A stretch of 64,000 bases of DNA, taken from the NCBI RefSeq assembly GCF_000143965.1, contig NC_014365.1, positions 709,501 to 773,500 on the forward strand, in the 5' to 3' direction. The first letter of the stretch is position 1. Every line of letters starts with the position of its first letter. The notes beneath the pieces are model-generated. The model saw only the letters and a list, made by a program, of their open reading frames with translations. It was not told where the DNA came from and did not search any database. Shown piece by piece: positions 673-60,683 of the stretch. Origin of the DNA: Desulfarculus baarsii DSM 2075. Lineage in GTDB: Bacteria; Desulfobacterota; Desulfarculia; Desulfarculales; Desulfarculaceae. Made by a program: the position numbers and the translations under genes.

Positions 673-3600
673 ATGTTCCTGCCCAATTTTTCCATCCGGC
701 GGCCGGTGGCGGCCACGATGATCATCGCGGCGCTGGTGGTCTTTGGCCTGATCGGCATCAGCCGGCTGGGCGTGGCCCTCTACCCGGACGTGGATTTTCC
801 CATGGTCACCGTGACCACGGTCTGGGAAAACGCCATGCCCGAGGAGATCGACAACCAGATCACCGACAAGCTCGAGGACGCCATCGCCGGCGTCAGCGGC
901 ATCAAGCACATCACCTCCCAGAGCATGCAGGGCAAAAGCACCATCACCGTCGAGTTCGAGCTGGGCAAGGACGTCGACGTGGCCGCCCAGGAGGTGCGCG
1001 ACAAGGTCTCGGCCAAGCTCTACGACCTGCCCGACGACATCGAAACGCCCGTCATCAACAAGCTCGACATCAACGCCCAGCCCATCATCTGGCTGGCGGT
1101 CACCGGCCAGCAGGCCATCGAGAACCTGACCAAGCTGGCCGACGAGCAACTGCGGCCGATGTTGCAGCGCATCATGGGCGTGGGCGAGGTGCGCGTGGGC
1201 GGCGCGCGGGCCAAGGAAGTGCACTTGCTGCTCAATCGCCAGAAACTGGCGGCCTATGGCGTGGGCGTCGACGAGGTTTCGCGGGCGGTGAAAAGTCAGC
1301 ACGTGGAGCTGCCCGGCGGCAAGATCGAGTCCAAGGACGACGAGTTTCTGATCCGCATCATGGGCGAGTTCGCCAGCCCCGAGGCCTTCAACGATTTGAT
1401 CGTGACCTGGCGCGACGGCCATCCCGTGCGCCTGCGCGAGCTGGGCCGGGCCGTCTCGGCCCGCGAGGAAACCAGCGCCGTGGCCCGCTTCACCACCAAG
1501 GACGGCGCGGAAAAGACCGTGGGCCTGGGCATCTCGCCCCGCTCGGGCGCCAATCAGGTGGAGATCGCCCAGAACGTGCGGGCCATGCTGCCCCAGATCC
1601 GGGCCATGGTGCCCGAGGGCGTCAAGATCCACATCGCCTCCGACTCGACCAAGTTCATCGAGGACTCCATCGCCGAAGTGCGCGAGCAGCTCTTTCTGGG
1701 CGGCGTCATCGCGGCGCTGGTCATCTTCGTGTTTTTGCAGAACACCCGCACCACCATCATCAGCGCCCTGGCCATTCCCACCTCGATCATCGCCACCTAC
1801 GCCTGCATGTACTGGCTGGGCTTCACCATGAACAACATGACCATGCTGGCCTTGGTCACGGCCGTGGGCTTGGTCATCGACGACGCCATCGTCATGGTCG
1901 AAAACATCTTTCGCCACCGCGCCGAGCTGGGCAAGGGGCCCTTTCAGGCGGCCTACGAGGGCTCCCACGAGATCTCCTTCGCCGTGGTGGCCACGACCCT
2001 GGCCTTGTCGGGCGTGTTTTTGCCGGTGGCCTTCATGGGCGGCATGGTGGGCAAGTTTTTCTACGAGTTCGCCGTGACGCTGGCCTTTGCCGTGGTGGCC
2101 TCGACGCTGGTGGCCCTGACCGTGGTGCCCATGCTCTCGGCCCGTTTCCTGACCGTCTCGGAGAGCCGTTCGCGGCTGTTTGGCGTGTTCAACGACATGA
2201 TGAACTGGCTCTCCAGAACCTATCGGCCCATGCTGGCCTGGGGCCTGCGCCACCGGCTGAGCATGGTGGCCCTGGGCGTGGTCGCCCTGCTGGTGGGCGG
2301 GTTCTTGTTCAGCCTGCTGGGCAAGGAGTTCGTCACCGAGGACGATCAGTCGCGCTTCATGGTGCGCCTGGAGACGCCGCTTTCCTACTCCACCAGCAAG
2401 ACCGACGAGTTGCTGCGCCGCCTGGAAAAAGAGCTGATCGTCCTGCCGGCGGTGGACCACTTCTTCTCGGTGGCCGGCTGGAACGGCGCCAACAAGGCCA
2501 TCGCCATCGTCGAATTGGTGGGCAAGAAAGAACGCCCCCTGACCCAGGCCCAGGTGCAGGGCCAGGTGCGCAAGCTCACCGAAGAGCTGCCCGACGTGCG
2601 GGCCAGCGTCTCGCCCATCGGCATCTTTGGCGGCATGGCCCGCAACGAGGAGATTCAGTTCGTCATCCAGGGCCCGGACATCGCGGAGCTCGACCGCTTC
2701 TCGCGCCAGATCATGGACCGCCTGGAAAACACCCCCGGCTACGTGGGCATCACCCGCGACCTGGAGATCGGCAAGCCCGAGGTGCGCGTGCTCATCGACC
2801 GCGAACGCGCCGCCGACCTGGGCGTGAGCGTCAGCGACATCGCCACCGCCGTGGCCTCTCTGCTGGGCGGCGTCAAGATCGCCGACTACAAGGAGGGCGG
2901 CAAGCGCTACGACGTGCGCGTGCGCCTGACCGAGCGCCAGCGCCTGCTGCCCCAGGACGTGCAACGCATCTACGTGCGCGCCGCCGACGGCAAGCTCCAC
3001 GACATCAGCGGCTTCATCACCCTGCAAACCGGCGTGGGCCCCAGCGTGATCAACCGCCTCGACCGCAGCCGCTCGGCCACCGTCTACGCCAACCTTAACG
3101 GCAAGCTGCTGGGCGACGCCCTGCCCGAGGTCAGGGCCATCGGCCAGGAGATCCTGCCCGAGGGCTACAACAGCAAATTCGCCGGCCGGGCCGAGAGCTT
3201 CGACGAGACGGTGGGCTATATCGCCTTTGCCTTCATGTTGGCCATTTTGCTGACCTACATGGTTCTGGCCGCCCAGTTCGAAAGCTTTGTCCAGCCCTTT
3301 TCGATCATGGTGGGCCTGCCGCTTTCGTTCATCGGGGCCTTTGGCCTGCTTTTGCTTTTGGGCAACACCTTCAACCTGTTTTCGATGATCGGCCTGGTGC
3401 TGCTGGTGGGCCTGGCCACCAAAAACGGCGTGCTGCTCATCGACTACGCCAACCAGATGCGCCAGGCCGGCATGGGCGTCCACGAGGCGCTGATCGAGGC
3501 CGGGGCCACCCGTATGCGGCCGATTCTGATGACGGCCGTCTCGACCATCGGCGGCGTGATCCCGGTGGCCCTGGGCCTGGGCGAGGGCGCCGAAAGCCGC

Positions 3601-3792
3601 CAGCCCATGGCCGTGGCCATCGCCGGCGGCATGCTCTCCTCGACGGTGCTGACGCTTTTGGTGGTGCCGGTCATCTATTCCTATATGGACCAGATGGTCA
3701 ACTGGCCGCCGCTCAAGCGCTTCCAGGCGCGGATCATGGCCAAGCGCCGCGGCCAGCAAGCGCCCGTCGGCGGCGACCAGCCGGCCGCCTGA
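673..3792 (+). CDS. RND efflux transporter, inner-membrane permease (AcrB/HAE1-type)
   Basis: This 1039-residue protein has the full RND architecture: an N-terminal membrane segment ([18 protein letters not shown]), the periplasmic PDVDFP motif just after it, two large periplasmic porter regions, and two bundles of membrane helices around residues 340-540 and 855-1020. The proton-relay motif is present in the first bundle ([14 protein letters not shown], two adjacent Asp), and [15 protein letters not shown] marks the second bundle. It should be a proton-driven trimeric exporter of the HAE1 (hydrophobe/amphiphile) type rather than a heavy-metal CusA type, because the metal-binding Met pairs of CusA are not evident. 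It starts at an ATG 3 bases after the adaptor stop with a G-rich ribosome site inside the preceding gene. No outer-membrane channel gene follows; an intrinsic terminator lies 22 bases downstream. Confidence 0.95.
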
Positions 3793-3813
3793 TTCCGGCC
3801 ACGTCAAACCTTG

Positions 3814-3850
3814 CCGCCGCCCGGGCCTTGCCGCCGGGGCGGCGGTTTTT
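3814..3850 (+). terminator. intrinsic terminator after the RND pump gene
   Basis: A 9-bp GC-only stem (CCGCCGCCC / GGGCGGCGG) with a 14-base loop is followed directly by TTTTT. It lies 22 bases after the pump stop codon and ends the adaptor-pump transcript. Confidence 0.85.
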
Positions 3851-3997
3851 CGTGGCCGACGGGCGCGGCCTCGGCCCGCGCGATCATACGCCAATGTCGG
3901 TTTTTACGGGCGAAGTCACGCGCAAGTATGTTTACACGCCATTTTGCCCGCCAAAGAGGCCTCTGGCCAAGGCACGGTTCTTGCTGCGATAATCGGC

Positions 3998-28268: not shown

Positions 28269-30410
28269 TCACCCCAAGCCCAGGGCCAAGCCGCCCTGAT
28301 GCACCGCCAGGGCCAGCAGGTAGGCCAGGGCGGTGGTGTAGGCCAGGCCGAAAAGCGCCCAGCGCCACGAGGCCGTTTCCTTTTTGATCACCGCCACCGT
28401 CACCAGGCACGGCGCGTAGACCATCACAAAGATCATCAGCGTCAACGCCGTCAGCGGGCTCCAGCCCGGTTCGGCGGCCAGGCGCTGGGCCAGGCCCAGC
28501 GGCTCGTCGGCCTCGACCTGGCCCAGGCTGTAGGCCGTGCCCAGGGTCGAGACGATGACCTCCTTGGCCGCGAAGCCGCCCACCAGGGCCACGTTGACCC
28601 GCCAATCAAAGCCCAGCGGGGCCATGATGGCGTCCAAGCCCCGGCCCATGCGGCCGGCCGCCGAGTTGGCCAGAGCGGCCTGGGCCATCTGGCCGGCCAG
28701 TTGCTCGCCCGTCTCCTGGCTGGGCGCCGCGTCGATGCGCGCCCGCCAGGCGGCGGCCTGGTCGTCGGGCAGGCCGGGGTAGGTCATCAGCGCCCACATG
28801 ATGATGCTGATGCCCAAGATCACCGTGCCGGCTTTCTTTATATATTGCCACGTGCGCTCCCAGGTGTGAATCAAAAGGCCGCGCGCGGTGGGCAGGCGGT
28901 AGGGCGGCAACTCCATGACAAACGGCGCGCTCCGGCCGCGCAGGATCGTCCAGCGCAGCAGCCGGGCGGCCAGCAGGGCCAGGCACCAACTGACGATGGT
29001 CAGGCCGAACATCACCGCCGCCTGGCGTTGGCCGAAAAAGGCCGCCGTCAACACCGCGTAGACCGGCAGCTTGGCTCCGCAGTTCATCAGCGGCACGGTG
29101 AGGATGGTTGCCAGGCGGGCCTTGGGGTCGGCCAGGGTGCGCGTGGCCATCACGCCGGGCACGGCGCAGCCGCCAGTGATTCCGCCGCCGACGATCAGGG
29201 CGATGACCGAGTTGCCGTGCAGGCCAAAGGCCCGCAGCACCCGGTCGAGCAGGAAGGCCGCCCGGGCCAGGTAGCCCGAGTCTTCCAGGAAAGCCACGGC
29301 CAGGAACATCAGCATGATCAGCGGCACGAAGCCCATCACCCCGCCCACGCCGTCGATGACGCCGCTGATGAGCATCTCGCGCAGCACCCCCGGCGGCGCG
29401 TGGGCCGCGACCATGTCGCCCAGCCAGCCGAAACCGGCCTCCAGCCAGGCCACTGGCGTCTCGGAGGCCCAGAAGACGAATTGATAGACCGCATAGAGCA
29501 CGAAAAGCAAAAACAGCGGCCCGAACAGGCGGTTGAGCAGCACCTTGTCGATCTGGTCGCTCATCTCCAGGCGCTGCACGCGGGGCTCGGTGACGCACTG
29601 ACGGTAAATGCTGCCGATGAAGCCATAGCGATAATCGGCGATGACGCCTTCGACGTCGTCGTCGAGGGTGGCCTGGATGTGCCGAGCCACGCCCTCGCGG
29701 ATGGCCTCCAGGCGTTGGGCCAGGCCCGGCGTCTGGCCGACAAGCTTTTGCACTTCGGCGTCGCGCTCCAGGAGCTTGACGGCCAGCCAGCGCGGCGAAA
29801 GGCCCTGGCCCGCGCCGGCCCCGTGGGCGGCGATACAGGCGCTCATGCGCACGATGGCCTCGTCCACGTCGGGGCCGTAGGATATCTCCAGCGGCCGCCA
29901 CGGCGCGCCCTGAGCGGCCACCTGGGCCACGGCGCGCAGCAACCCGTCCAGGCCCTTGCCCGTGCGGGCGACCAAGGGCGCCACCGGCGCGCCCAGCAGG
30001 TCGGTCAGGCGCTGGGCGTCGATCTTGAGCCCCCGCGATTCGGCCAGGTCCATCATGTTCAGGGCCACGACCAGCGGCGCGCCCAGTTCCATGATCTGCA
30101 CGGCCAGATAAAGATTGCGCTCCAGGTTGGAGGCGTCGACCACGGCCACGACCACGTCGGGCCGGTCTTGGATGATGAAGTTGCGGGCGACGACTTCCTC
30201 GAGCGAATAGGCGCTGAGGCTGTAGGTGCCGGGCAGGTCGACGATCTCGAAAAGTTGGCCCTCGCGCTGGGCCTGGCCCGATTTTTTTTCGACGGTGATG
30301 CCGGGGTAGTTGCCCACGTGCTGGCGCGCGCCGGTGAGGGCGTTGAACAGCGAGGTCTTGCCGGCGTTTGGGTTGCCGGCCAGGGCCACGACGATCTTGC
30401 CGCCGGCCAT
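28269..30410 (-). CDS. feoB: ferrous iron transport protein B
   Basis: The 713-residue protein has an N-terminal G-domain: G1 GNPNAGKTSLFN, G3 DLPGTYSL and G4 NMMD. A helical spacer follows, then a membrane domain of two Gate regions (CAVPGVMATRTLADPKARLATIL; GGFAAKEVIVSTLGTAYSLG). It transports Fe2+ across the inner membrane. The start overlaps the feoA stop by one base (TGATG), so the two are translationally coupled. The order is feoA, feoB, then the Cys-rich accessory gene. Confidence 0.96.
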   Translation of the reverse strand: MAGGKIVVALAGNPNAGKTSLFNALTGARQHVGNYPGITVEKKSGQAQREGQLFEIVDLPGTYSLSAYSLEEVVARNFIIQDRPDVVVAVVDASNLERNLYLAVQIMELGAPLVVALNMMDLAESRGLKIDAQRLTDLLGAPVAPLVARTGKGLDGLLRAVAQVAAQGAPWRPLEISYGPDVDEAIVRMSACIAAHGAGAGQGLSPRWLAVKLLERDAEVQKLVGQTPGLAQRLEAIREGVARHIQATLDDDVEGVIADYRYGFIGSIYRQCVTEPRVQRLEMSDQIDKVLLNRLFGPLFLLFVLYAVYQFVFWASETPVAWLEAGFGWLGDMVAAHAPPGVLREMLISGVIDGVGGVMGFVPLIMLMFLAVAFLEDSGYLARAAFLLDRVLRAFGLHGNSVIALIVGGGITGGCAVPGVMATRTLADPKARLATILTVPLMNCGAKLPVYAVLTAAFFGQRQAAVMFGLTIVSWCLALLAARLLRWTILRGRSAPFVMELPPYRLPTARGLLIHTWERTWQYIKKAGTVILGISIIMWALMTYPGLPDDQAAAWRARIDAAPSQETGEQLAGQMAQAALANSAAGRMGRGLDAIMAPLGFDWRVNVALVGGFAAKEVIVSTLGTAYSLGQVEADEPLGLAQRLAAEPGWSPLTALTLMIFVMVYAPCLVTVAVIKKETASWRWALFGLAYTTALAYLLALAVHQGGLALGLG

Positions 30411-30655
30411 CAGGCTTGCTCCTCTGGCTGGACAAAGACGTGGTCGGCCTCGTTGTTGCGCAGCGTCAAGTTGTAGCCGCGCAGCTTGATCTCCACCGGA
30501 TCCTTCAGCGGCGCGCGGCACATCATCTGCAACCTGGCGCCCGGCGCCAGGCCCATGTCACGCAGACGCCGGCCCAATTCGCCCTTGGCCGTCAGCTTGG
30601 TGACCACCGCCCACTGGCCTTGGGCCAGGGTGCGCAGGGTGGGGTTGTCGTTCAT
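30410..30655 (-). CDS. feoA: ferrous iron transport protein A
   Basis: This 81-residue SH3-like protein has the FeoA pattern: GQWAVVTKLTAKGELGRRLRD, MGLAPGARLQM, PVEIKLRGYNLTLRNNEADHVFV. It works with the cytoplasmic G-domain of FeoB. A longer in-frame N-terminus is possible but is basic, low complexity and not FeoA-like; the Met at 30655 is chosen. It is the first gene of the feo operon. Confidence 0.95.
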   Translation of the reverse strand: MNDNPTLRTLAQGQWAVVTKLTAKGELGRRLRDMGLAPGARLQMMCRAPLKDPVEIKLRGYNLTLRNNEADHVFVQPEEQA

Positions 30656-30729
30656 CGATCTTCTCCGGCGGCCTTCTGGCCGCCCGTGGTCGTGGTGATG
30701 TTTGGCCCCCCTCGAGCGACGCGGCGTAT

Positions 30730-30768
30730 AAATTAACCCATCGTTGGATGCTGTCAAGCTTGTTTGAC
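30730..30768 (-). promoter_or_regulatory. candidate feo promoter with overlapping dyad
   Basis: On the minus strand a consensus TTGACA (30752-30757) is followed after 16 bases by TAATTT (30730-30735), a weak -10. The dyad GTCAA-N6-TTGAC (30753-30768) overlaps the -35 box and could bind a metal regulator. A classical Fur box was not recognised. Confidence 0.45.
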
Positions 30769-30821
30769 CTGACGAAAGTTTACGCGCCGCCGGCCGACGG
30801 GGCAAGGCGCGCGTTTTTTTC

Positions 30822-30861
30822 TTGGCGCGGCGCGCCCGGCTGTGCTACCGTCACAAACGGT
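30822..30861 (+). promoter_or_regulatory. candidate promoter and dyad upstream of the Tyr-rich leader
   Basis: TTGGCG (30822-30827), an 18-base spacer and TACCGT with a TG extension predict a start near 30858. The dyad ACCGT-N5-ACGGT (30847-30861) overlaps the -10 and predicted start. The -10 match is weak, so the dyad may be the better signal. Confidence 0.4.
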
Positions 30862-30891
30862 CAATGTTCCGGGAGTCATGCGAAACCGATC

Positions 30892-30966
30892 ATGAACAAC
30901 GCCAGCCTACATAATTGTCTCTGCCTCTACCGCTATTATTATTACTATCAGCCGCTGGGCGGCTGA
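30892..30966 (+). CDS. candidate Tyr-codon leader peptide upstream of the TRAP operon
   Basis: This 24-codon ORF contains six Tyr codons, in the order YRYYYYYQ, five of them in a row. Such a run is the hallmark of a ribosome-stalling leader peptide. The end of the ORF, including its stop codon, lies inside a perfect hairpin (30948-30966). The ribosome site is weak: GGGAG is 16 bases upstream. It precedes dctP by 123 bases on the same strand. By analogy with known leaders this would make TRAP expression respond to charged Tyr-tRNA. It could be chance, as no protein homology can be used at this size. Confidence 0.55.
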   Translation: MNNASLHNCLCLYRYYYYYQPLGG

Positions 30967-31064
30967 AACTATTTAACCCAGACAATTTACTAGCTTTTTT
31001 CACCAACCAGCGAAGACGTTCGTCCGCGCGGGCCCAAAAAGCCACGGGCTTGGCTTGGCCGCGC
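30948..31064 (+). promoter_or_regulatory. structured leader between the Tyr ORF and dctP
   Basis: Three elements can be drawn. Hairpin A is TCAGCCGC-TGG-GCGGCTGA (30948-30966), perfect 8 bp. A competing pairing is CTGGG (30955-30959) with CCCAG (30977-30981). A two-tier hairpin spans 31026-31064 (GCGCGG.CC pairing with GGCCGCGC, inner AAGCC-ACG-GGCTT). A TTTTTT run at 30995-31000 is not immediately preceded by a stem, so this is not a textbook terminator. The mutually exclusive pairings fit a conditional leader. Confidence 0.45.
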
Positions 31065-31089
31065 CATGGGCGACCATGGAGAAGATATC

Positions 31090-32106
31090 ATGTTGAAACG
31101 TTTGGCGGTTTTTGTAGCGGCCCTGATGCTGGCCGGCGCGTGCGGCGTGGCCCAGGCCCAGCAGACCCTGACTTACAGCAATTTTTTCCCGCCCACCCAC
31201 GCCCAATCGGTGCTGGCCCAGCAGTGGTGTGACGAGGTGGCCAAGCGCACCGACGGCAAGCTGCGGGTGCAGTACTTCCCCGGTCAGACCCTGACCAAGG
31301 CCCCCCAGGCCTTCGAGGGCGTCACCGCCGGCCTTTCCGACATCGCCATGGGCTGCTTCAGCTACACTCGCGGCCGCTTCCCGGTGATGGAGGTGGTGGA
31401 TCTGCCCCTGGGCTACCAGAATGGCCAGGCGGCCACCGCCGTCATCAACGAGGTCTACGCCCAGCTCAAGCCCAAGGAGCTTGACGGCGTGGAGGTGCTC
31501 TATCTGCACGCCCATGGGCCGGGCCTGTTGTTCACCAAGGACAAGCCCGTGGCCAAGCTGGAGGACATGAAGGGCCTGAAGATCCGCTCCCACGGCTCGT
31601 CGGCCCGGCTGGTGCAGGCCCTGGGCGGCACGCCGGTGACCATGGCCATGCCCGAATCCTACCAGGCCCTGTCGCGGGGCACCGTCGACGGTTCGGTCCA
31701 CCCCACCGAATCCAACCTGGGCTGGAAGCTGGGCGAGGTGGTCTCCTATCGCACGGCCTCGTTCCCCGTGGCCTACACCACCGGCTTTTTCGTGGTGATG
31801 AACAAGGCCAAGTGGGACGCCCTGCCCGAGGACGTCAAGGCCACCGTGCGCCAGGTCAACCAAGAGTGGATCGCCAAATCGGCCGCGGCCTGGGACAAGG
31901 CCGACGAGGCCGGCCTGGAGTACTTCCTGAGCCTGCCCGGCCGCAAGGACATCGCCCTCGACGCGGCCGAAAGCGCCCGTTGGGCCGCGGCGGCCAAGCC
32001 GGTGCTCGACGAATACGCCAAGGCCATGGACGAGCGCGGCTTTGACGGCAAGGCCATCGTGAGCGCGGCCCAGGCGGCCCTGGCCAAGCACAACGCCGCC
32101 AAATAG
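31090..32106 (+). CDS. TRAP transporter substrate-binding protein (DctP family)
   Basis: The protein has 338 residues from the ATG at 31090 (GGAG upstream), with a Sec signal peptide ending near AQAQ. DctP-family marks include SNFFPPTHAQS near the mature start, LKIRSHGSSARLVQALGGTP with the conserved substrate-binding Arg, and ESYQALSRGTVDGSV. It binds an organic acid in the periplasm for the DctQM membrane pair encoded just downstream. The ligand is not evident from sequence; if the upstream Tyr-codon leader is real, an aromatic acid is a reasonable guess. Confidence 0.93.
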   Translation: MLKRLAVFVAALMLAGACGVAQAQQTLTYSNFFPPTHAQSVLAQQWCDEVAKRTDGKLRVQYFPGQTLTKAPQAFEGVTAGLSDIAMGCFSYTRGRFPVMEVVDLPLGYQNGQAATAVINEVYAQLKPKELDGVEVLYLHAHGPGLLFTKDKPVAKLEDMKGLKIRSHGSSARLVQALGGTPVTMAMPESYQALSRGTVDGSVHPTESNLGWKLGEVVSYRTASFPVAYTTGFFVVMNKAKWDALPEDVKATVRQVNQEWIAKSAAAWDKADEAGLEYFLSLPGRKDIALDAAESARWAAAAKPVLDEYAKAMDERGFDGKAIVSAAQAALAKHNAAK

Positions 32107-32120
32107 AAAGGATCAGCCCC

Positions 32121-32600
32121 ATGTTGGAGCGGCTTACGTCCTTGGTCAGCCGATTGTTTTCCATCGCCGCCGGCGCGGCCCTGGTGCTGATGATGGCCCT
32201 GACCTGCCTGGACGCCATCCTGCGCGACATCAACATGCCTCTGGTCGGCATCAACGAATCGGTGACCTATCTGGGCGCCCTGGTGCTGGGCTTCAGCCTG
32301 CCCATGACCCAGCGCCGGGGCGGCCAGGTGGGCGTGGAGCTGCTCAGCCGCAAGCTGACGGGCCGGCCGGCCGAGGCGCTGGCGGTGCTGGTGAGTCTGG
32401 TCTCGCTGATTCTCTGCGCGGTGACGGCCTGGCAGTGCTGGGCCTACGCCGGCGAGCTCAAGGCCAGCGGTGAGGTCTCGATGAACCTGGGCCTGCCGGT
32501 GCATCTGGTGACCCAGGCCATCGCGGTGTCGTTTGGCGCGCTGTGCCTGGTGATCCTCAATCAGATGGTCGCGGCCATCGGAAGGCTGGCGGCCAAATGA
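32121..32600 (+). CDS. TRAP transporter small membrane subunit (DctQ family)
   Basis: The 159-residue protein has four predicted membrane helices and the DctQ-like core VGINESVTYLGALVLGFSLPM, followed by a HxGQV-like basic turn (RRGGQVGVELL). It supports the large permease in sodium-coupled uptake. It lies 14 bases after dctP with GAAAGGA as ribosome site, and its stop overlaps the dctM start (ATGA). Confidence 0.92.
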   Translation: MLERLTSLVSRLFSIAAGAALVLMMALTCLDAILRDINMPLVGINESVTYLGALVLGFSLPMTQRRGGQVGVELLSRKLTGRPAEALAVLVSLVSLILCAVTAWQCWAYAGELKASGEVSMNLGLPVHLVTQAIAVSFGALCLVILNQMVAAIGRLAAK

Positions 32601-33919
32601 GCCCCGATGTGGTCGGTTTGGTCGGCATCATCTTGATGCTCATGATCTTTCTCACCGGCATGCCCGTGACCTACGTCATGGCCCTGGTCGGTTGGCTGGG
32701 CTTTTCCTACATCGTCTCGCCCGAGGCCGGCTTGCAGCTTCTGGCCCGCGACATGGTGGGCACCTTCCAATCGAGCACGCTGGTGGTGGTGCCGCTGTTC
32801 ACGCTGATGGGCCAGTTCGCCTTGCAGGCCGGGGTCAGCAAGCGGCTCTACGAAGTGGCCCACCGCTTCACCGGAGCCATGCCCGGCGGCCTGGCCATGG
32901 CCACCGTCCTGGCCTGCACCGGCTTTGGCGCGGTGTGCGGCTCATCCACGGCCACGGCGGCGACCATGGCCACCGTGGGCCTGCCCGAGATGAGCCGGCG
33001 CAATTATTCCCCGGCCCTGGCCACCGGCGCGGTGGCCAGCGGCGGCAGCCTGGGCATGCTCATGCCGCCCAGCGTGGTGCTGATCGTCTATGGCGTGCTG
33101 ACCGAGGCCTCCATCGGGCGATTGTTCGTGGCCGGCATCATCCCGGCGCTGCTGATCGCCCATCTGTTCATCGTGGCCATCGCCGTGGTCTGCTGGCTGC
33201 GGCCCAAGGCCTGCCCGGTGGGCGAGAGCTACTCGTGGGCCGACAAGTTCGCCGCGCTGCGCGAGGTGGGCGAGGTGATCCTGGTCTTTTTGCTGGTGCT
33301 GGGCGGGCTGGTGCGCGGCTGGTTCACCGAGATCGAGGCCGGCGGCGTTGGCGCGATGCTGATGCTGATGGTCGGCCTGGCTCGCCGGCAGATGACCTGG
33401 CTGGCCTTTCGCAAAGCCCTCAACGACACCCTGTGGACCTCGTGCATGACGATGATGCTGGTGGCCGGGGCGGTGGTCTTCGGCCACTTTCTGACCATCA
33501 CGCGCATCCCCTTCGCCGTGGCCGAACTGGTGGCCGGGCTGGACTGGCCGGCCTGGGCGGTGATCGTGGCCATCGGCGCGGTTTATCTGATCGGCGGCTG
33601 CATCATCGACGCCCTGGCCCTGGTCATGCTGACGGTGCCGATCTTCCTGCCCATCGTCACGGGGCTGGGCTTCGATACGATCTGGTTCGGCGTGATCATC
33701 GTGCTGCTGACGCAGATGGGCGTGATCACCCCGCCGGTGGGCATAAACGTCTATGTCGTGCAGGGCATCGCCCGCGACGTCAAGCTGGAGGCCATTTTCA
33801 AGGGCTCGATGCCTTTCCTGGTCGCGCTGATCGTGGGCATGCTGATCCTGGTGACCTTCCCGCTCATCGCCACCTGGCTGCCCGACCAAGTCTATCAACA
33901 CCTGGCCGTGGGGCGCTGA
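32597..33919 (+). CDS. TRAP transporter large permease subunit (DctM family)
   Basis: This 440-residue protein has about 12 membrane helices and the DctM signatures CTGFGAVCGSSTATAATM, SGGSLGMLMPPSVVLIVYG and QMGVITPPVGINVYVVQG. It is the ion-coupled carrier of the TRAP system. The start ATG overlaps the dctQ stop. No T-run terminator follows; a 9-bp stem-loop lies about 60 bases downstream. Confidence 0.94.
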   Translation: MSPDVVGLVGIILMLMIFLTGMPVTYVMALVGWLGFSYIVSPEAGLQLLARDMVGTFQSSTLVVVPLFTLMGQFALQAGVSKRLYEVAHRFTGAMPGGLAMATVLACTGFGAVCGSSTATAATMATVGLPEMSRRNYSPALATGAVASGGSLGMLMPPSVVLIVYGVLTEASIGRLFVAGIIPALLIAHLFIVAIAVVCWLRPKACPVGESYSWADKFAALREVGEVILVFLLVLGGLVRGWFTEIEAGGVGAMLMLMVGLARRQMTWLAFRKALNDTLWTSCMTMMLVAGAVVFGHFLTITRIPFAVAELVAGLDWPAWAVIVAIGAVYLIGGCIIDALALVMLTVPIFLPIVTGLGFDTIWFGVIIVLLTQMGVITPPVGINVYVVQGIARDVKLEAIFKGSMPFLVALIVGMLILVTFPLIATWLPDQVYQHLAVGR

Positions 33920-60585: not shown

Positions 60586-60683
60586 GGAAGTGGATAGCTC
60601 TCTGGTGGGGCTCCCGGACTTCAAATCCGGTGTGGGGCATGAGTAATGTCTCGGGTGGGTTCGATTCCCATGCACTTCCGCCA
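60586..60683 (+). tRNA. selC: selenocysteine tRNA (anticodon TCA)
   Basis: The 98-base RNA folds as a tRNA with acceptor GGAAGTG pairing CACTTCC. The anticodon stem-loop is CCGGA-CTTCAAA-TCCGG, with TCA at 60621-60623. A long variable arm (GTGGGGCATGAGTAATGTCTC region) and a TTCGATTC T-loop follow, and the CCA end is encoded at 60681-60683. The TCA anticodon, extra length and long variable arm are those of tRNA-Sec, which reads UGA with SelB. The host therefore makes selenoproteins. None was recognised in this window. Confidence 0.93.

Follow-up and report, generated by a model that had tools for sequence, protein, structure and literature searches.

Gene content of the locus

The window, the whole 64-kb stretch of DNA analysed here, is G000:C1:709501-773500 of a single-contig genome of 3,655,731 bp, and it contains a TRAP transporter operon preceded by a short ORF rich in Tyr codons. 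The features of this region, in window coordinates, are as follows.

30822..30851, + strand: promoter-like TTGGCG-N18-TACCGT with extended -10 TGC; transcription predicted to start near 30858
30847..30861, no strand: dyad ACCGT-N5-ACGGT that overlaps the -10; present in this genome alone
30871..30875, + strand: GGGAG, Shine-Dalgarno-like, 16 nt 5' of the leader ATG (unusually far)
30892..30966, + strand: Tyr leader ORF, with counterparts in nine other genomes
30928..30948, + strand: Tyr codons at conserved positions -7, -5, -3 and -1 (plus -4 and -2) before Q/R-P
30948..30966, + strand: hairpin H1 over the leader stop codon, 8 bp, loop of 3; present in all ten leaders
30967..31011, + strand: G-poor stretch after the ORF, 7% G, 36% GC against 67% GC for the window; candidate Rho-loading region
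31026..31064, + strand: hairpin H2, with no T-run; form not conserved
31078..31081, + strand: dctP Shine-Dalgarno GGAG; a GGAG-type site also precedes dctP in relatives
31090..32106, + strand: dctP, TRAP solute-binding protein, aromatic-acid type
32121..32600, + strand: small TRAP permease subunit, assigned by position (no NCBIfam match)
32597..33919, + strand: dctM, large TRAP permease subunit

The leader ORF at 30892-30966 encodes MNNASLHNCLCLYRYYYYYQPLGG in 24 codons, of which six specify Tyr, one at 30928-30930 and five in succession at 30934-30948, exactly as an earlier note on this DNA had described. Five consecutive TAY codons occur at a single site within the whole 64 kb, and that site is this ORF. 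A census of short ORFs (8-60 codons, both strands of the window) returned 714, among which the leader was unique in exceeding two Tyr per seven residues, with six. Divergent from the TRAP operon, and having the upstream region in common with it, are feoA and feoB (28269-30805, - strand); elsewhere, the window contains a selenocysteine tRNA at 60586-60679 (Rfam RF01852, 72.8 bits).

The TRAP transporter and its predicted substrate

The AlphaFold2 model of DctP (pLDDT 93, pTM 0.88) matched aromatic-acid-type TRAP solute-binding proteins in each of the best 27 PDB chains whose title names a ligand class, and a gap separates these chains (E 1e-28 or better) from the next (8e-24). They include Desal_3247, Rfer_2570, BB24xx, a metagenomic protein "specific for aromatic acid ligands", and Dde_0634, the ligands of which we take to be indole pyruvate and D-Trp. 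TarP of three species is also among them, with coumarate, caffeate, ferulate, cinnamate or 4-hydroxyphenylacetate bound. The DctP fold matches these ligand-bound structures of the TarPQM system (TarP, RPA1782) at 26-31% identity, and the DctP ligand is a prediction; TarP itself binds coumarate with a Kd of 8 nM (PMC3610893). On the evidence of the model, DctP belongs to the TarP/Dde_0634 group of aromatic-acid TRAP binding proteins, in agreement with the earlier suggestion that the transporter imports an aromatic acid.

The window's genome encodes the alpha subunit of indolepyruvate ferredoxin oxidoreductase, which in principle would open a route from 4-hydroxyphenylacetate or 4-hydroxyphenylpyruvate to tyrosine. 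A prephenate dehydrogenase domain was detected in 17/20 family genomes, including every leader genome, which rules out Tyr auxotrophy as the reason for uptake; given that tyrosine biosynthesis is present, uptake would be salvage. In most leader genomes (L162, L166, L167 and others), dctPQM is followed by genes for a CNNM/CBS-domain membrane protein and a pyridine-nucleotide disulphide oxidoreductase, a pair that is absent downstream of dctM in the window.

Conservation and distribution of the leader

We searched 98 genomes for DctP and inspected the 500 nt upstream of each hit. Nine other Desulfarculaceae genomes, including that of Desulfocarbo indianensis (L008), carry an intact counterpart of the leader in the same place, making ten related sulfate reducers with the window's own. 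Eight were evident as Tyr-rich short ORFs 5' of dctP (L002-L006, L008, L009 and L021), and the leader of L007 was recognised by inspecting its reading frames. The peptides of these relatives are MVSNASHSVRTYAYVYCYYYRPPRG, MVSSASHSVRAYAYVYCYYYRPPRG, MASNAAHSVRAYAYVYCYHYRPPRG, MASNASYSVRAYAYVYCYDYRPPRG, MSNSISHSSPAQAYLYSYDYRPPRG, MARTASHSAHAQAYLYSCDYRPPRG, MFQSRPAYAYLYSYYYRP, MTSRTSDNAVRAYSYAYYYRPSGR and MLSQPAANLYYAYAYYYRPSGR, and examples of leader ends are ...YAYVYCYYYRPPRG-stop and ...YAYLYSYYYRP-stop. Counting back from the R/Q-P pair, Tyr occupies positions -1, -3, -5 and -7 in 39 of 40 cases over the ten leaders, with TAT and TAC used interchangeably; positions -4, -6 and -8 are free to vary. 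The Pro after R/Q is invariant and lies 0 or 3 codons from the stop. Because Tyr is kept through TAT/TAC changes while its neighbours vary, and because the N-terminal parts are dissimilar between lineages, the alignment indicates codons under selection rather than a conserved small protein. The orthologue comparison proposed in the earlier note therefore came out as that note had anticipated, the Tyr codons being conserved while most other residues change.

The leader was not found 5' of about 90 other Desulfobacterota homologues, and among 80 further GTDB loci fetched with the DctP alignment just 4 had it, all in genomes already known to carry it. A covariance model of the leader core gave good scores only in family members among 297 Desulfobacterota genomes, and since it missed Desulfocarbo (L008), leaders with shorter stems are out of its reach. 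Scanning 20 family genomes with the pattern TAYNNNTAYNNNTAYYRNCC recovered nine TRAP leaders, the other matches including long ORFs or sites that do not have the leader form. The leader region gave no match in a plasmid search and nothing above the gathering score in Rfam, a permissive scan included.

In the DctP tree, nine leader-bearing proteins fall within one group of 13; the other four members belong to other families and have no leader, and within the family 9/9 DctP proteins of the leader clade have one. The tenth leader, L021 (G015), precedes a DctP from a different group, about 49% identical. L021 and L009 (G013) have upstream genes in common and occupy the same chromosomal place, so the leader has stayed where it was although a different transporter now stands behind it, and the regulator appears to have outlived this change in G015. 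In G011, the sister of L021, a leader Tyr codon has become TAG and the start of dctP is deleted (L180, 4251-4700); leader and dctP seem to have decayed together, though this is a MAG contig in which an assembly fault is possible.

Promoter and translation signals

The promoter predicted before the leader is a weak extended -10 type. A TG.GCTA-type extended -10 lies at a similar position in L001-L007, and TTGACA-N17-TAxxAA lies 5' of the leader in L008, L009 and L021; by hexamer score, promoter-like elements precede the leader in 7/10 loci, and the other three have the TG.GCTA motif. These predictions place transcription starts upstream of the leader in most relatives, which supports the core of the earlier interpretation. 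The dyad that the earlier note had seen overlapping the promoter does exist, but as an operator-like element it is not conserved; in L002-L007 an inverted repeat of another kind lies 3' of the promoter.

The GGGAG at 30871-30875 is also at good spacing for an ATG at 30878, the start of a 5-codon ORF (MRNRS) that ends in an ATGA overlap with the leader ATG (window 30871-30895), and a coupled start of the two ORFs is possible. Spacing from GGAG to the leader ATG is 16-18 nt in seven members (L001-L007), which is poor for leader translation and counts against the leader acting as a sensor. In L002-L007 only, folding predictions pair the region around the leader GGAG with the Tyr codons; a few paired changes accompany this helix, which may limit re-initiation.

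Hairpins, terminators and the G-poor stretch

H1, TCAGCCGC-TGG-GCGGCTGA, is a perfect 8-bp stem that runs from the last Tyr codon across the stop codon, so the earlier description of a hairpin at this point holds and can be extended to all ten leaders. It has a predicted energy of -14.0 kcal/mol in the window (55-nt context; z = -3.6 against dinucleotide shuffles) and is predicted in 10/10 leaders with 8-10 bp and z from -2.4 to -5.5. The pair at the third base of the last Tyr codon is U-A in nine leaders and C-G in L008, and that at the second base of the next codon is G-U, A-U or G-C; the stop-codon stem is thus retained with paired changes, the covariation that had been proposed as a check. 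Sliding the stem as a control lowered the paired fraction from 89% to at most 43%, and the shuffle control for changes on both sides of H1 (67/500) is weak because few pairs vary. RNAalifold on the ten leaders returned part of H1 plus a weak long-range helix only and was not used.

The other pairings fared differently. The proposed competition between CTGGG (30955-30959) and CCCAG (30977-30981) exists in this genome but is not present in relatives, and the two-tier hairpin at 31026-31064 is real but takes a different form in every relative. No downstream partner of the H1 arms is shared, with 1 of 20 duplexes beating shuffles at 1%, and no mutually exclusive antiterminator was found in the ten TRAP leaders. 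Our scan also returned no intrinsic terminator between leader and dctP in the window, upholding the earlier statement that no textbook terminator precedes dctP. Applied to all ten leaders, the same scan gave matches in L008 and L009 alone, which lie inside or next to H1 and lack a T-run, and it picked out strong terminators in 7/7 aro leaders that form a single orthologous group.

Directly after the leader stop codon, C minus G over 45 nt reaches or exceeds the 95th percentile of local sequence in 9/10 leaders (the window is at the 97th, L002-L007 and L021 at the 99th or higher, and L008, the exception, at the 75th). The G-poor stretch is only moderate in the window, weaker than in relatives, and ordinary in L008. 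Its composition would fit a Rho-loading region.

Similar leaders before DAHP synthase

A phylum-wide search for five consecutive Tyr codons detected short ORFs before DAHP synthase. Within the family, seven orthologous DAHP synthases have Tyr/Phe leaders, e.g. MNHQRGQFKSLDAAIGGRPRAYVFGYYYYYAPATGTVSLHGARKA, followed by a perfect intrinsic terminator, and the leaders of a second DAHP-synthase group include ...YFYFSFYYFTAVCPVPGEV.

L213-L219: DAHP-synthase leaders in G010, G012, G017, G019, G002, G007 and G018
L243 leader region, 3380-3900, - strand: G000:C1 about 548.0-548.3 kb, outside the window

No such leader was found before the orthologues L220-L222, which include that of the window's genome. 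That genome does have a second-group Phe/Tyr leader, MTGRTEIAAPRSLANGFKGVYYFSYFYFTGVCPPAREVLA, before a DAHP synthase (L243); it is followed by two inverted repeats with T-rich tails and is apparently a classical aromatic attenuator. Because most such leaders have textbook terminators, tyrosine attenuation is probably in use at the DAHP synthases of this family.

The two kinds of leader have the same front end, with a Tyr/Phe cluster YxYxYYY-A-P before DAHP synthase and YxYxYYYxP before the TRAP operon. G007 has both, AAYLYSYYYAP before DAHP synthase and QAYLYSCDYRP before TRAP, and the shared cluster shows when its AAYLYSYYYAPVSRTVS is set against QAYLYSCDYRPPRG of its TRAP leader. This resemblance suggests a common origin. 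A hairpin at the ORF end is a further feature that the seven DAHP-synthase leaders have in common with the TRAP leaders. Downstream they differ: in the seven, an intrinsic terminator follows and there is an antiterminator-like complement, whereas the TRAP leaders lack both terminator and antiterminator.

Proposed mechanism and alternatives

We think it likely that the leader is a cis-acting leader-peptide sensor of tyrosyl-tRNA charging, and that the TRAP operon under its control takes up an aromatic acid that the cell can use for tyrosine or makes from it. A shortage of charged tRNA-Tyr would stall the leading ribosome on the Tyr codons, where it would either prevent H1 from folding or hold a paused polymerase, and the operon would be transcribed. 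When tyrosine is plentiful, the ribosome would finish the leader and depart, the naked G-poor RNA would then be open to Rho (or dctP translation would be lowered), and uptake would fall. The sensing step, in which the ribosome reads the Tyr codons, is well supported, better than the output step, which together with its sign is our proposal. The output would be non-canonical and possibly Rho-dependent, and we tentatively prefer a Rho-type mechanism to control of dctP translation or to an arrest peptide. Geometry weighs against the model, in that a ribosome stalled on the Tyr codons does not obviously shield the RNA 3' of the stop from Rho.

The leader shares with attenuators an ORF with a codon run and a hairpin at the ORF end over the codon run and stop. 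A classical attenuator switch is ruled out by the lack of a terminator and of a shared antiterminator, for which reason we class the element as attenuator-like, and since the competing pairing, the two-tier hairpin and the dyad are not conserved, a classical alternative-hairpin switch is not supported.

An output at the level of translation, in which the position of the ribosome in the leader alters folding around H2 and the dctP ribosome-binding site, would account for the absence of a terminator in 10/10 leaders, and several predicted folds do place small helices near the dctP start. These helices and H2 differ among relatives, with no shared alternative pairing, and the leader stop is at least 100 nt from dctP; we consider this route unlikely.

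Arrest of the kind described for E. coli TnaC is a different possibility, and to our minds quite improbable. Here the nascent YxYxYYYRP, aided in the exit tunnel by an aromatic acid or free tyrosine, would stall the ribosome at R-P or the stop, and the parked ribosome would cover the G-poor stretch and block Rho, so that the importer would be induced by what it imports. In TnaC, the stalled ribosome has Pro24, the final residue of the peptide, in its P site, and control is Rho-dependent with a rut site directly after the stop (PMC8429421). The TRAP leader likewise precedes an operon with an aromatic transporter (as in tnaCAB), has a candidate Rho region immediately 3' of its stop codon, and shows Tyr at alternating fixed positions with an invariant P after R/Q; L008 even ends YYYRP-stop. 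However, Pro is the last residue in L008 only, the number of codons between P and the stop is not constant (0 or 3), the H1 stem also accounts for R/Q-P, and Tyr is lost at -2 and gained at -4 and -8, just as a count of codons would allow. The aro leaders of the same family, with the same Tyr pattern, end A-P and rely on intrinsic terminators. For TnaC, sensing of free Trp depends on the critical residues Trp12, Asp16, Ile19 and Pro24 with no codon run, whereas the TRAP leader has a Tyr-codon cluster and a variable C-terminus. That the ORF is not regulatory at all, its Tyr codons being a by-product of an AT-rich patch, of a promoter inside 30915-30942 (where a promoter-like match overlaps the Tyr run) or of another DNA or RNA motif, is scarcely credible, as that match depends on a TATTAT present in this genome only, Tyr is retained through TAT/TAC changes in ten genomes, and relatives have better promoter matches upstream.

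Relation to known leaders

Most known cases of leader-peptide attenuation concern biosynthesis and tRNA-synthetase operons of Proteobacteria and Actinobacteria. The E. coli leaders pheL (pheA) and that of pheST, and C. glutamicum aroR, are likewise short ORFs with aromatic codons upstream of aromatic-amino-acid operons, but they work by terminator and antiterminator and their targets are biosynthesis or tRNA-synthetase genes, whereas the TRAP leader has no terminator and precedes an importer. The aroR leader of aroF carries Phe-Tyr-Phe (PMC11802643) and responds to Phe rather than Tyr, unlike the TRAP leader with its Tyr-only codons. The open-access literature that we searched yielded no account of a Tyr-only leader preceding a TRAP operon or other transporter, nor any comparable leader for TarPQM. 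The novelty claimed earlier for a Tyr leader on a TRAP operon therefore stands for the Tyr-only TRAP arrangement, but not for aromatic leaders as such, given the Tyr/Phe DAHP-synthase leaders of the same family and the aromatic leaders elsewhere.

A conserved Tyr-only TRAP leader would extend attenuation to uptake and to the Desulfobacterota, and it offers a direct clue to what this transporter, with its predicted ligand, carries. Aro leaders with a terminator and TRAP leaders that lack one form a natural pair with which to probe how a stalled ribosome acts when there is no terminator. More tentatively, a terminator-less Tyr leader might gate Rho through ribosome position and H1 (or might be an arrest peptide sensing tyrosine or an aromatic acid), having been recruited from a DAHP-synthase-type attenuator to an importer, and sister leaders with different outputs might tune tyrosine synthesis and salvage; we regard this combined scenario as doubtful. 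Further short ORFs with penta- or hexa-Tyr were also observed: at L198 (G305), MKNFSGRTNSYDYYYYYAFGLPAAG precedes a class-I-like DAHP synthase, and at L188 (G313), MTANQSRAYLYYYYYYTKRRGLLMD precedes another ORF. Tyr leaders may be commoner in Desulfobacterota.
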